From assembly GCF_004216905.1 (NCBI RefSeq), contig NZ_SGXJ01000005.1, forward strand, positions 496,001-560,000: a stretch of DNA of 64,000 nt, given 5' to 3'. The stretch is from Kribbella sp. VKM Ac-2569. Lineage in GTDB: Bacteria > Actinomycetota > Actinomycetes > Propionibacteriales > Kribbellaceae. Shown here one piece after another: positions 1,259 to 6,821 of this stretch. The notes under the pieces were generated by a model, which worked only from the letters and a program-made list of their open reading frames with translations, searched no databases and was not told the DNA's origin. The position numbers were made by a program, and so were the translations under genes. Position 1 is the first letter of the stretch, and every line of letters starts with the position of its first letter.

Positions 1259-2242
1259 ATGGAACTGACGACTGTATGGTTCGTCGCGATCGCGACGCTG
1301 TGGACCGGGTACTTCGTGCTCGAGGGCTTCGACTTCGGAGTCGGGATGCTGTACCGCGTGCTGGGCCGGAACGAGCCCGAACGGCGGGCCGCGATCAGCA
1401 CGATCGGCCCGGTCTGGGACGGGAACGAGGTCTGGCTGATCATGGCCGGTGCCGCCACGTTCGCGGCGTTCCCGGAGTGGTACGCGACGCTCTTCAGCGG
1501 GTTCTACCTGCCGTTGTTCGCGATCCTGGTGGGGCTGATCGTGCGCGGCGTCGCACTCGAGTACCGCGGCAAACGGGACGAGCCGGCGTGGCGCGCGCGG
1601 ATGGACGCGATGATCGTCGTCGGGTCGGTGCTGCCGGCCCTGCTCTGGGGTGTTGCCTTCGGCAACATCGTGCGCGGTGTGCCGCTGGATGCCGATCACG
1701 AGTACGTCGGCGGCTTCGGCACGCTGCTCAACCCGTTCGCGCTGCTCGGCGGCCTGACCTTCGTCGCGGTGTTCGTCACCCACGGCGCGATCTTCCTCGC
1801 GCTGCGCACCACCGACGAGCTGCGCGTTCGCGCCAACCGGCTCGCCACCCGCACCGGTGCCGTCGCCGCGGTGCTGACGATCGCCTTCCTCGCCTGGGCG
1901 CAGGCGTTGCGCGGGGACACCGTGTCCGTCATCGTGACGATCGCCGCGATCGTCGCGTTCGCCGGCGGCCTGGTCGCGAACCTGCTGCGCCGCGAGGGCT
2001 GGGCCTTCGTCGGTACGACGCTTGCCATCGGACTGGCCGTGGTGTCGTTGTTCGTCGCGCTGTTCCCGGACGTGATGCCGTCCACGCTGGATCCCGGGTC
2101 GACGCTGACCGCGGTCGAGGCAGCGTCCTCGGCGTACACGATGAAGGCGATGACGATCATCACGGCGATCTTCTTCCCCCTGGTACTGGTCTATCAGGGG
2201 TGGACGTACTGGGTCTTCCGTAAGCGGGTCGTGGTCGCATGA
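1259..2242 (+). CDS. cydB: Cytochrome bd ubiquinol oxidase subunit II
   Basis: Second structural subunit of cytochrome bd oxidase, a multi-pass membrane protein without haem that pairs with CydA. The 327-residue product begins MELTTVWF and shows the family N-terminus FVLEGFDFGVGML followed by GPVWDGNEVWL, both typical of CydB. The frame stays open further upstream, but ATG 1259 is chosen because TGAGGGGCC just before it is a good ribosome-binding site and the protein then starts like its relatives. The end overlaps the cydD start in an ATGA, indicating translational coupling. Length is close to the usual 330-380 residues. Confidence 0.97.
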   Translation: MELTTVWFVAIATLWTGYFVLEGFDFGVGMLYRVLGRNEPERRAAISTIGPVWDGNEVWLIMAGAATFAAFPEWYATLFSGFYLPLFAILVGLIVRGVALEYRGKRDEPAWRARMDAMIVVGSVLPALLWGVAFGNIVRGVPLDADHEYVGGFGTLLNPFALLGGLTFVAVFVTHGAIFLALRTTDELRVRANRLATRTGAVAAVLTIAFLAWAQALRGDTVSVIVTIAAIVAFAGGLVANLLRREGWAFVGTTLAIGLAVVSLFVALFPDVMPSTLDPGSTLTAVEAASSAYTMKAMTIITAIFFPLVLVYQGWTYWVFRKRVVVA

Positions 2243-3873
2243 AGCCGCTCGACCCGCGGCTGCTGAAGCGCGCCCGTGGTGCCCGGGTCTTCCTGTTGGC
2301 GTCTGTCCTGATCGGCGTTCTTAGCGGTGTGCTGATCATCGTGCAGGCGGTGCTGCTCGCACACGGCATTGCAGGCGTCGTACTGCGGGGCAGCGGGGTG
2401 ACTGCTGTCGCCTGGGGTCTGGCTGCAGTCGTTGCCGGGCGGGCATTGCTGGTGTGGGCGCAGGAGGTGGTCGCACAACGCGCAGCCGCCGCAGTGAAGT
2501 CCACGCTGCGGCGGCAGGTGCTGGAGCACTCACTGAAGCTCGGACCGGTCTGGCTGAGCGGTGAACGCAGCAGTGCGCTGACAACCCTGCTGACCAAGGG
2601 CCTGGACGATCTGGACCCGTACTTCGCCCGCTACCTGCCACAGCTCATCCTGGCCGCCACTGTGCCGGCCGGCGTGATCGGCTGGATGGCAACCGGTGAC
2701 CTGATCGCTGCTGGCACAGTGCTGATCACCCTGCCGCTGATCCCGATCTTCATGGCACTGATCGGCTGGGTGACGCAGGCGCGCAGCCGGCAGCGTCAGC
2801 ACGCCTTGGCCGTGCTGGCGCATCACTTCGCGGATGTGGTCAGCGGACTGACCACACTGAAGCTGTTCGGCCGCGCGAAGTCGCAGGAGTCCGCCGTACG
2901 ACGGGTTACCGACCAGCACCGGGCTGCGTCGATGGGGAGCCTGCGGCTGGCGTTCCTGTCGTCGTTCGCGTTGGAGCTGTTGGCGAGCCTGTCGGTCGCA
3001 CTGGTTGCTGTGGGCGTCGGTCTTCGGCTGGTTGACGGGAAGCTCGGGCTCGAGACCGCGTTGATGGTGCTGATCCTGGCGCCGGAGGCGTACCTGCCGT
3101 TGCGACAGGTGGGCATGCAGTTCCACGCGAGCGCGGACGGGGTCGCGGCCAGCGAAGAGGTGTTCCGCGTGCTGGAGACGCCGCTGCCTGTACGTGGCGA
3201 GCGCACCGACGTACCCGATCTTCGGGTGAATCCGCTGTACCTGTACGACGTGACAGTGACCTACCCGGGGCGGGACGTGCCTGCGCTGGAGGGGTTCGAT
3301 CTGGAGTTGCGGCCGGGTGAGGTGGTGGCGCTGACCGGACCGAGTGGCGCTGGGAAGTCGACGGCGCTGGCTGTGCTGCTCGGATTCGTCGCGCCGGAGC
3401 GTGGGGTGGTCGTCGCCGCTGGCAGTGCCGCGGACGAGTTCGATCCGGCGGAGTGGCGGCGGCAGTTCGCGTGGGTGCCGCAGCGTCCCGGCCTGCGGCT
3501 GGGAACTGTGGCCGACAACGTGCGGTTGGGCCGGCCGGATGCATCGGACGACGAGGTCCGCTTGGCACTCCTCGCCGCGGGTGCTGCCGACCTGCCGCTC
3601 GACAAGGCGGTGGGGGAGCAGGGACAGCAACTCTCAGGCGGTCAGCAACGTCGGGTCGCACTCGCTCGCGCGCTCCTCACCGACGCCCCGGTGCTGCTGC
3701 TCGACGAACCAACAGCCGGCCTCGACCCCGAGACCGAAGCCAGAGTCATCACCGCCCTCCGCTCGACCGGCCGCACCGTCCTGATGGTCGCCCACCGTCC
3801 CACTCTGATCGCAGCCGCCGACCGGACAATCACCGTAGAACCAGCGGCACCAAGAGAGTTGGTGAACGCTTGA
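2239..3873 (+). CDS. cydD: Thiol/haem ABC exporter, CydD-type half-transporter
   Basis: Half of the heterodimeric CydDC ABC transporter, which in studied bacteria exports cysteine/glutathione or handles haem and is needed to assemble cytochrome bd. The N-terminal half is a membrane domain; the ATPase domain has Walker A GPSGAGKST (about residues 370-378), the signature LSGGQQRR (465-472) and Walker B VLLLDEP (485-491). The start overlaps the cydB stop (ATGA). The stop TGA at 3871-3873 lies at the edge of an inserted tnpB element. Joining the sequence across the element extends the frame by SIWPIQ and ends in a TGA overlapping the cydC ATG. The protein therefore appears to have lost its last six residues, far from the catalytic motifs, and is probably still functional (inference). 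Confidence 0.95.
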   Translation: MKPLDPRLLKRARGARVFLLASVLIGVLSGVLIIVQAVLLAHGIAGVVLRGSGVTAVAWGLAAVVAGRALLVWAQEVVAQRAAAAVKSTLRRQVLEHSLKLGPVWLSGERSSALTTLLTKGLDDLDPYFARYLPQLILAATVPAGVIGWMATGDLIAAGTVLITLPLIPIFMALIGWVTQARSRQRQHALAVLAHHFADVVSGLTTLKLFGRAKSQESAVRRVTDQHRAASMGSLRLAFLSSFALELLASLSVALVAVGVGLRLVDGKLGLETALMVLILAPEAYLPLRQVGMQFHASADGVAASEEVFRVLETPLPVRGERTDVPDLRVNPLYLYDVTVTYPGRDVPALEGFDLELRPGEVVALTGPSGAGKSTALAVLLGFVAPERGVVVAAGSAADEFDPAEWRRQFAWVPQRPGLRLGTVADNVRLGRPDASDDEVRLALLAAGAADLPLDKAVGEQGQQLSGGQQRRVALARALLTDAPVLLLDEPTAGLDPETEARVITALRSTGRTVLMVAHRPTLIAAADRTITVEPAAPRELVNA

Positions 3874-4010
3874 CGTCCTCCCTGCTGTCAATGGCGGGGA
3901 TTCCAACGACTACGCGGAGGTAGCGAGTTGAGGTTCACGCTTCGGCGAGACTCGTGGTGGCGTCTCTTGGCGTGCGCTGACGGCCCGTCCGGCCGCGATG
4001 TTGACTGCCG
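3872..4010 (-). ncRNA. Candidate omega RNA (reRNA) at the tnpB 3' end
   Basis: In studied TnpB elements the guide RNA overlaps the 3' end of tnpB and runs through the right end into flanking DNA. Here the segment past the stop, read on the minus strand, contains TCCCCGC and GCAGGGA, which can form an imperfect stem, and ends in GTCAA. A guide would then start in the flank, in sequence from the 3' end of cydD. The position and the stem are read from sequence; the existence of the RNA is inferred from the family, and the upstream limit is arbitrary. Confidence 0.35.
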
Positions 4011-5106
4011 CGTTCACGTCCGCGTTCGCCTGGTGTCCGCAGGCTACGCATCGGAAAACCGCTTGGCTCTCGCGGTTCTCCGACGCCCTATGCCCGCAGA
4101 CGCTGCAGGTCTGCGACGTATACGCAGGATTCACCTTCTGGACTCGTCCTGTGGCCTTGTCCTCGAGTCGTCGGACGAGGTGACCCCAACCGTTGGCCAG
4201 GATGCCCCGGTTGAGCCCGGCTTTGGCGCGGCGCCGGTTCGGCAGGTGGGCGCCCGATCGTTCGGGATCGGGCTTAGGCTTGGGACGTCTGATCATCTGT
4301 GGGATGCGCAGATCCTCCACGCGGATCACGTCGTACCGTCGGGCGAGGTCTGTGCTGGTCCTTTCGACCCAGTTCTTGCGGCGGTCGGCGCCGCGAGCAT
4401 GCAGTCTGGCGATCGCGGCCATCACCCGCTGGCGGCGATTGGAGCGACGACGGCAGCGCGCGAGGCGGCGCTGCAGGTGCTTGAGGCGGTCCTGCTCGGT
4501 CTCCGACAGCCCTGGGCACGACAGGAGTTCACCGGTGGACAAGGCCGCCGAGACGGTGACACCGCGGTCCACGCCGACCACTTCACCCGTCCCGGGCGCC
4601 GGAATCGGTGCCGGGATGACGGCGAAGGCGATGTGCCAACGGCCGGCCCCATCGCGGGTGATGCGGTACGACTTCGCATCCGATATGGCACGGGACAGGC
4701 GGAACCGGATCCAGCCGACCTTCGGCACCAGCACTCGCGCCCACGTGCGGTTCAGGTTCTCGACCCGAGACGCTTGGGTTCCGACGATTCGGAACCCTTC
4801 GTGCCGTCCGGCTTTGCGCCACGTCGGTCGCCGGTGGGTTCCTGCGTAGAAGTACCTGACCGCTTGGTCGAAGTCTCGCAAAGCCTGCTGCTGGACGGTT
4901 TGCGACCCAGCCCGCAGCCATCCGAACACGGCTCGCGCCTCCGTCAATTGGCGCGCCTGCTCGACGTACCCCGGCGTTGGCGGTTTGTCGCGGGTCCACA
5001 TCAACCATTGCTCAAGCGCCAGGTTCCACACATGTCGCGCATGTCTGCAGTGCTCGAGCAACGCAGCCTGCTGCTCGGCAGTTGGGCACATCCGGAACCG
5101 GGACAT
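3910..5106 (-). CDS. tnpB: RNA-guided endonuclease TnpB (IS200/IS605 superfamily)
   Basis: A 398-residue TnpB, the compact RNA-guided nuclease ancestral to Cas12. The RuvC site looks complete: D180 in VGVDRGVTVS, E264 in IRVEDL and D363 in NADVNAAVNI. The zinc ribbon is C334-x2-C337 and C353-x2-C356. The N-terminus MSRFRMCPTAEQ matches the usual TnpB opening, so ATG 5106 is preferred over an in-frame start 84 bp further up; no strong ribosome-binding site is visible. All key residues are present, so the nuclease is probably active. Known family members use an RNA from their own 3' end to cut DNA next to a short target motif, which helps the element persist. No tnpA is adjacent. Confidence 0.93.
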   Translation of the reverse strand: MSRFRMCPTAEQQAALLEHCRHARHVWNLALEQWLMWTRDKPPTPGYVEQARQLTEARAVFGWLRAGSQTVQQQALRDFDQAVRYFYAGTHRRPTWRKAGRHEGFRIVGTQASRVENLNRTWARVLVPKVGWIRFRLSRAISDAKSYRITRDGAGRWHIAFAVIPAPIPAPGTGEVVGVDRGVTVSAALSTGELLSCPGLSETEQDRLKHLQRRLARCRRRSNRRQRVMAAIARLHARGADRRKNWVERTSTDLARRYDVIRVEDLRIPQMIRRPKPKPDPERSGAHLPNRRRAKAGLNRGILANGWGHLVRRLEDKATGRVQKVNPAYTSQTCSVCGHRASENRESQAVFRCVACGHQANADVNAAVNIAAGRAVSARQETPPRVSPKREPQLATSA

Positions 5107-5213
5107 GCTACAAATCCAAACAGCTACCGCCGACAACTTGCCCGAGTCTGCGAAGCGGGCCAGTCGCGGTGCCTCGCCACCCTGGAACACCGCGCTTCAA
5201 TCTGGCCAATCCA

Positions 5214-6821
5214 ATGATCGACCTCGTGCGCCCGGCGGATCGGGCGTGGTGGCAGCTGGGCTTGGCTTTGGGGCTTGGTGTTTCGGCGGCCGGGTCAGCT
5301 GTCGCTCTGCTCGCCACGTCGGCCTGGCTGATCACAGCGGCGTCGGCACAACCACCTGTGCTGTTGCTGATGGTCCCGATCGTCGCGGTGCGCGCCTTCG
5401 GTGTCGGGCGCGGCGTCTTCCGGTACGTCGAACGGCTCGTCGGACACGATGCGGCGTACCGGGTGCTGGGGGAGACCCGTGCGCGCATCACTGGGCGTCT
5501 GGAGAAGCTCGCGCCACTCGGTTCGCAGCGGAAGGGCGATCTGCTCGCCCGCCTCGTGCTGGACGTCGATGCGGTCCTCGACCTCTGGCTGCGAGTGCTC
5601 CTGCCCGTTGCAGTCGCAACCGTCACAGCAGCCGCCACGGTGGGTCTCCTCGCGGTGCTGCTTCCAACAGCCGGTGCCGCCGTCGCACTGGCGGTCCTGA
5701 TCGCGAGCACCGTCGTACCGTGGCTGACTGCCCGGACCGCTGAGCGAGCCGAGCGCAACGTCGCTGGTGCCCGTGGGGACGTCGCAGCCACCACCACCGA
5801 GGCCCTGCTCACAGCAGCGGATGTGGTCGCCTACAACGCGATCGACTCGGTGCTGGACGACTTCAGCCGCCGCGACGCGCACCTGGCCGCCGCCGAACGC
5901 CGGTCCGCCTGGAGCGCCGGCTTAGGCAGCGCCCTGCTCGTCCTGTGCGTCGGCGGCGCCAGCGTGGCTGCCCTGGTCCTCGGCAGCACGGCGAACATCA
6001 CCGGCGCGGTCTTCGCCGTACTTGTCCTGACCCCGCTCGCCCTGGCCGACGTACTCGGCGGAATCCCGGCTGCCGCCCAGCTGGCGATCCGGGTACGGGC
6101 GTCCCTCGACAGAGTGCAGGAACTCGTAGACACCCCCGCGCCGGTCACCGAGCCGACCAAGCCGCTGCCCCTCCCAACCGGACGCGACCTGCAGGTGAAC
6201 CTGCTGCGAGCCGGGTACGACGGCCCCGACGTGCTGGATGGACTCAGCCTGGACATGCCGGCAGGGAGCCGTGTGGTGATCACCGGCCCGAGCGGCTCGG
6301 GTAAGAGCACGCTGGCCTCGGTCCTGCTCCGGTTCCTCGATCCGCGCGGGGGAGAGGTGCTGCTGGACGGTGTGGATCTCGCCAGGCTCGAAGGCGACCA
6401 GGTGCGGTCCGTCGTCGGGTTGCTGACCCAGGAGAGCCACGTGTTCGACACGAGCATCCGGGAGAACCTGCTGCTCGCGAAGCCGGGTGTCAGCGACCTG
6501 CAGGTGTGGAAGGCGCTCTACCGGGCGCGGCTCGGGCTGCTCGTCGAGAAGTTGCCGGAAGGCCTCGACACCATGGTCGGGGAGCACGGTGCGCGGCTGT
6601 CGGGTGGTGAGCGCCAGCGGCTCGCGTTCGCGCGGCTGCTGCTGGCCGATCGCGACGTACTGGTGCTCGACGAGCCGACCGAGCACCTGGACGAGGAAAC
6701 CGGACGGGCGCTGCTGGCCGACCTGTTCGCTGCGGCGGGCGACCGGACCGTGGTTCTGCTGACTCATCGCCCGGAGTTGGTGCCTCCTCACGTACCGCGA
6801 CAACTGGTTTGCCTGACGTGA
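5214..6821 (+). CDS. cydC: Thiol reductant ABC exporter, CydC-type half-transporter
   Basis: Partner of CydD in the ABC exporter required for cytochrome bd assembly. The 535-residue product has an N-terminal membrane domain (IDLVRPADRAWW, then hydrophobic helices) and an ATPase domain with Walker A GPSGSGKST (358-366), signature LSGGERQR (462-469) and Walker B VLVLDEPTEHLDEE. The frame is open upstream into the tnpB element, but those residues do not belong to the family. ATG 5214 is chosen because the protein then opens like other CydC and because it would overlap the restored cydD stop as ATGA. With the element present, coupling to cydD is lost and no good ribosome-binding site is seen directly upstream. 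Confidence 0.94.
   Translation: MIDLVRPADRAWWQLGLALGLGVSAAGSAVALLATSAWLITAASAQPPVLLLMVPIVAVRAFGVGRGVFRYVERLVGHDAAYRVLGETRARITGRLEKLAPLGSQRKGDLLARLVLDVDAVLDLWLRVLLPVAVATVTAAATVGLLAVLLPTAGAAVALAVLIASTVVPWLTARTAERAERNVAGARGDVAATTTEALLTAADVVAYNAIDSVLDDFSRRDAHLAAAERRSAWSAGLGSALLVLCVGGASVAALVLGSTANITGAVFAVLVLTPLALADVLGGIPAAAQLAIRVRASLDRVQELVDTPAPVTEPTKPLPLPTGRDLQVNLLRAGYDGPDVLDGLSLDMPAGSRVVITGPSGSGKSTLASVLLRFLDPRGGEVLLDGVDLARLEGDQVRSVVGLLTQESHVFDTSIRENLLLAKPGVSDLQVWKALYRARLGLLVEKLPEGLDTMVGEHGARLSGGERQRLAFARLLLADRDVLVLDEPTEHLDEETGRALLADLFAAAGDRTVVLLTHRPELVPPHVPRQLVCLT

Follow-up and report, generated by a model that had tools for sequence, protein, structure and literature searches.

A tnpB-only IS200/IS605-type element family of Kribbella positioned at gene starts, with a candidate replacement ribosome-binding site at its left end

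Within the window (the whole stretch of DNA analysed, 64,000 nucleotides) a tnpB element lies antisense between cydD and cydC, and comparison of its copies identifies position at gene starts as a rule of the family and not an accident of this locus, since the target read on the opposite strand is a start codon. The best explanation, to which we give a probability of roughly two in three, is a tnpB-only element of the IS200/IS605 type whose target lands it at gene starts and whose left end would supply a replacement ribosome-binding site.

The genes cydB, cydD and cydC follow one another on the + strand with tnpB on the - strand between the last two; the host belongs to Kribbella, contigs of the same genus bearing Kribbella titles. 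End comparison over about 85 copies, from which ends and target were derived, together with uninterrupted relatives, delimited a whole element of 1344 bp (3870..5213, - strand) carrying tnpB (3910..5106, - strand; 398 aa, with RuvC residues D180, E264 and D363 and zinc-ribbon cysteines). The right-end boundary falls at window position 3870, beginning TTGACGTCC; nearly all compared copies start with this sequence or a close variant, and the DNA before it is unrelated. The left end is the base before RTGA (R is A or G), window position 5213. The right-end terminus (3870..3873, - strand) reads TCAA on the tnpB strand and TTGA on the + strand, and a hairpin region conserved in sequence among the copies lies next to it at 3877..3905. 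Insertion took place between GC and ATGA, inside an ATGA stop/start overlap, and the retained ATGA (5214..5217, + strand; TCAT on the tnpB strand), recognized from the copies and uninterrupted relatives, is the start of cydC (5214..6821, + strand), whose natural start is kept as judged from its open reading frame and relatives.

The original prediction of a clean antisense insertion parting cydD from cydC with little damage was confirmed, as was its proposal that cydD takes its stop from the element, the TGA at 3871-3873 being element DNA. The search that it recommended for an uninterrupted cydD-cydC pair succeeded in 29 relatives, and the coupled junction has indeed been lost: once the element is taken out, cydD and cydC meet in an ATGA overlap, and an RTGA overlap of cydD stop and cydC start is present in 28 of the 29 Kribbella relatives. 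These relatives do not have the six-residue CydD extension that was expected of them. The C-terminal residue is Ala in 20 of the 29, the closest ending in ...RELVNA-stop, written GTGAACGCATGA, so the supposedly lost residues SIWPIQ are element DNA. The window cydD (2239..3873, + strand; 544 aa) is of full natural length and ends where its relatives end; host GC followed by element TTGA reads GCT-TGA, so CydD loses nothing, and the last codon GCT in place of the GCA of the closest relative is a silent change. The pentamer CGCTT, proposed to bound the insertion, does occur at 3867-3871 and 5193-5197 but does not mark the element ends, the right copy lying 16 bases inside the element; the pair is a coincidence, no repeat being expected at the ends because IS200/IS605 elements make no target duplication. 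A CGCTT-bounded insertion that removed six CydD residues is therefore refuted despite the two occurrences of the motif, given that relatives' cydD ends at the same Ala and that the ends map elsewhere from copies, two outcomes that the prediction had itself named as contrary to it. It did not foresee the start-adjacent position as a family habit or the ribosome-binding site that the left end appears to carry.

The target reads TCAT or TCAC on the tnpB strand, which on the opposite strand is ATGA or GTGA (start codon plus A). When 69 copies were scored for a hairpin at the left end, the distance from its foot to RTGA was exactly 7 nt in 42 copies, 6 nt in 9 and 8 nt in 3. Gene starts, called with a codon model trained on the window, were found at 46 of 55 Kribbella-group insertion sites, a set picked by a stem near a purine-rich motif (a recognizable left-end hairpin), compared with 54 of the 740 RTGA sites of a single control window, this one with the element left out (7.3%, p = 2e-43). 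When only sites that break no gene were considered, starts made up 87% of insertions and 40% of available sites (p = 2e-12); the copies are related and not independent, so these p-values overstate certainty, although the effect is large nonetheless. Outside Kribbella, 15 of the 20 cases that could be read had RTGA 7-8 nt past the hairpin. In Frankia the RTGA target is often not a gene start, so it is in Kribbella that the start-codon habit shows most clearly. These data bear on an alternative that we consider unlikely but the most serious of those weighed, in which RTGA is a mere four-base target, insertions into gene bodies are lost whilst those at starts persist, and the purine block and hairpin are transposition signals with no role in translation. 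TCAT/TCAC is plausible as an IS200/IS605-type target, end hairpins are required for transposition in IS608, and the same target in other genera is often not a start; against selection alone, non-disruptive sites other than starts are under-used, as the 87% and 40% figures indicate.

At the right end, the upstream coding frame enters the element as NN/T-TGA (the slash marking the boundary) in 50 of 85 copies; the same arrangement was found at 5.5% of RTGA sites in the control and at 26% of those resembling starts. Most copies thus occupy stop/start overlaps, and the element rebuilds the upstream stop. Of the 31 last codons whose original base could be read, 22 still specify the same residue and most of the others exchange one residue. 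Since target (ATGA/GTGA) and right end (TTGA) share TGA, stop and start are both kept. Several unusual copies were also observed. L118 (G009:C4:403112) is a lone right end with an upstream flank resembling that of L052 (G021), and the TGA of that right end continues to terminate the ORF upstream, as though the element were gone but its stop had survived. The upstream flank of L115 (G028:C1:3895060) apparently breaks off within a sugar ABC permease gene and its downstream flank opens with a gene start, which may reflect a deletion beside the element, and L120 (G052:C95:132114-132348) is a tnpB-less derivative of ~235 bp in which the right end is joined to left-end DNA.

The left end has a consistent order of near-perfect Shine-Dalgarno sequence GAAGGGAGG, 2 nt, covarying hairpin, 7 nt and start codon. 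This sequence is able to pair with the 16S tail over nine positions, with a mean pairing energy of -15.1 kcal/mol across the 55 copies compared with -2.8 for the 22 nt immediately preceding the start codon. With the stem-pairing test anchored on the Shine-Dalgarno sequence and ORF start only, without use of pairing, 364 of 399 stem cells were paired compared with 320 +/- 5.7 for shuffled partners, and both-side changes were seen at several positions. Insertion leaves the native ribosome-binding region ~1.3 kb away on the far side of the element, and folding of the hairpin would place the left-end Shine-Dalgarno sequence ~9 nt from the start. In hairpin-less copies (L003, L048, L051, L062 and L083) a motif resembling a Shine-Dalgarno sequence lies ~5-9 nt from the start, and another subgroup (L110, L113 and L121) has GGAG(G) between hairpin and start. 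Pairing with the ribosome far beyond chance, kept near the start by copies without a hairpin, argues against the left end serving transposition alone, and from this anatomy we infer that the downstream gene could be translated from left-end signals. The Shine-Dalgarno sequence might instead be the fossil leader of a lost divergent tnpA that now happens to point at the host gene, a reading prompted by the distant relative L126, whose Y1 tnpA starts just outside a conserved ACCGACA block and is divergent from tnpB. Pairing at -15 kcal/mol in 55 of 55 copies, with spacers constant at 2 nt and 7 nt, is not what a mere fossil would retain, and we consider this reading improbable as a competing account, although it could describe the origin of the arrangement in the preferred one.

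The window copy has exact junctions, an intact tnpB and a preserved left-end stem, the predicted hairpin (5158..5207, + strand) having feet GGCCAG (5158-5163) and CTGGCC (5202-5207). Its Shine-Dalgarno sequence (5152..5159, + strand) has decayed from the family form to GAAGCGGG, weakening the pairing energy from ~-15 to -5.6 kcal/mol. Translation of cydC behind this copy may thus be less efficient, and loss of ATGA coupling combined with the weak site could lower CydC relative to CydD. In copies L130, L133 and L149 from other actinomycete genera, the left-end Shine-Dalgarno sequence is accompanied by a short ORF that runs through the hairpin, its TGA stop being the TGA of the host RTGA, which by eye resembles a built-in termination-reinitiation device. 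Such a leader mini-ORF was rejected as a general mechanism in the Kribbella group, where a usual start codon is present in the useful stretch of only 10 of 55 copies.

One copy in genome G031 (L039) is located between mraY and murD, and the 240-base site made by joining its two flanks is uninterrupted in most other Kribbella. G031 has a single murD above the family cut-off and murD is essential in bacteria, so the gene behind this copy must still be expressed, a further point against selection alone. A similar argument from ligA (L097) was dropped as G028 has two ligA genes.

In the preferred explanation, the Kribbella elements sit in antisense orientation immediately ahead of start codons, mostly within a 4-bp stop/start overlap. 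Comparison shows that the right end turns an upstream NNR-TGA into NNT-TGA with protein length kept and that the retained RTGA preserves the downstream start codon; the strong left-end Shine-Dalgarno sequence would stand in for the native ribosome-binding region once folding had bridged the distance to the start. By analogy with ISDra2, TnpB, its guide taken from the upstream flank, would cleave sites lacking the element and thereby help to retain it; in the window the predicted guide corresponds to the cydD-end flank adjoining the right end (3850..3869, - strand), a position as in ISDra2 (PMC8612924). Standing against this explanation are a genome without a Y1 transposase, Frankia targets that are often not starts, and a window copy without a strong Shine-Dalgarno sequence.

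The protein itself matches PF07282, PF01385 and PF12323 and the solved ISDra2 TnpB structure 8bf8 (E 5e-21), and D180, E264 and D363 are invariant in an eight-member TnpB alignment. The window genome has four further copies (71-79% identical) and one broken copy, and a sample of 198 genomes of the class included 50 with TnpB relatives. Copies from a single genome often cluster, as do all six of G028 and six of G031 within eight tips, indicating that the family moved in recent lineages. The pairs L107/L109 and L003/L059 look inherited, whilst same-site copies in different species (L042/L048, L050/L077 and L058/L082) are not sisters, suggesting that each reached the shared junction independently. 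Apparently one junction is occupied by the two non-sister elements L050 (G023) and L077 (G017), and L050 is flanked by a TsaD-domain (TsaB-like) gene upstream and a GNAT acetyltransferase gene downstream. No Y1 transposase was found in the element or in the window's genome, and the only match in 38 Kribbella genomes (G031:C7:51482-51820, L128), an unrelated one, adjoins a different tnpB; a resident Y1 TnpA was therefore rejected as the mover. No serine recombinase, a trait of IS607, was present among the ORFs of the element. A small ORF upstream of tnpB in L146, and also in L132 and L134, resembles by eye a ribbon-helix-helix (Arc-like) protein.

In known IS200/IS605 elements, insertion occurs 3' of a short target, which is retained at the left flank (TTAC for IS608, with right cleavage site TCAA, and TTGAT for ISDra2), and IS608 transposition needs end hairpins (PMC5934647, PMC8612924). 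The Kribbella element agrees with this type in its TnpB with RuvC residues and zinc ribbon, related to that of ISDra2, in insertion without duplication 3' of a fixed target (RTGA/TCAY) kept at the left flank, and in hairpins near both ends (that of the right end by sequence). Its right end TCAA equals the right cleavage site of IS608, whilst its target TCAT/TCAC differs from both. Unlike IS608 and ISDra2 it has no tnpA, a Y1 TnpA being found neither in the element nor, to act in trans, elsewhere in the window's genome, and it has the start-codon/overlap habit and the left-end Shine-Dalgarno sequence. Elements of the IS1341 type likewise carry tnpB without tnpA between IS200/IS605-type ends; as this type lacks tnpA by definition, the missing Y1 TnpA does not exclude a tnpB-only element. 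No report of IS1341-type elements with start-codon targeting or a built-in ribosome-binding site was found in the open-access literature, and the search of that literature yielded no description of docking at start codons or overlaps.

Two other relatives of such elements were considered. IStrons, which combine an intron with an IS200/IS605 element, also limit damage to the host gene; the Kribbella element would do so by position and replacement signals and not by splicing, and IStron identity was rejected as no group I intron or other known RNA family was matched in it (Rfam, E up to 1). TldR proteins are nuclease-dead TnpB regulators, TnpB relatives encoded beside host genes. The catalytic residues D180, E264 and D363 are present here and copies occupy many different sites, so TldR identity was likewise rejected. 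A domesticated TnpB that regulates its neighbours would fit the position in operons and a guide matching DNA beside gene starts. It is very improbable given intact RuvC residues, a flank and hence guide that vary from site to site, and intragenomic clades that show spread.

Taking the preferred explanation further, we regard it as evenly balanced that evolution has equipped the family with a start-codon target, a portable translation-initiation region at one end (Shine-Dalgarno sequence, hairpin bridge and host start) and a stop codon at the other, giving it a harmless seat in operon junctions even before single-copy essential genes; the host gene would then depend on the element end, shielding that end from decay. 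Entry into neutral DNA and splicing out are the usual explanations for how mobile elements spare their hosts. The Kribbella element seems to avoid harm by using the start codon as target and bringing its own stop and ribosome-binding signals. If so, this would explain the persistence of such TnpB elements in crowded operons, provide a natural experiment on initiation from a Shine-Dalgarno sequence bridged by a hairpin, and predict that a set of TnpB nucleases recognizes a start-codon TAM (TCAT/TCAC); operon breaks beside tnpB should then not be read as inactivation.
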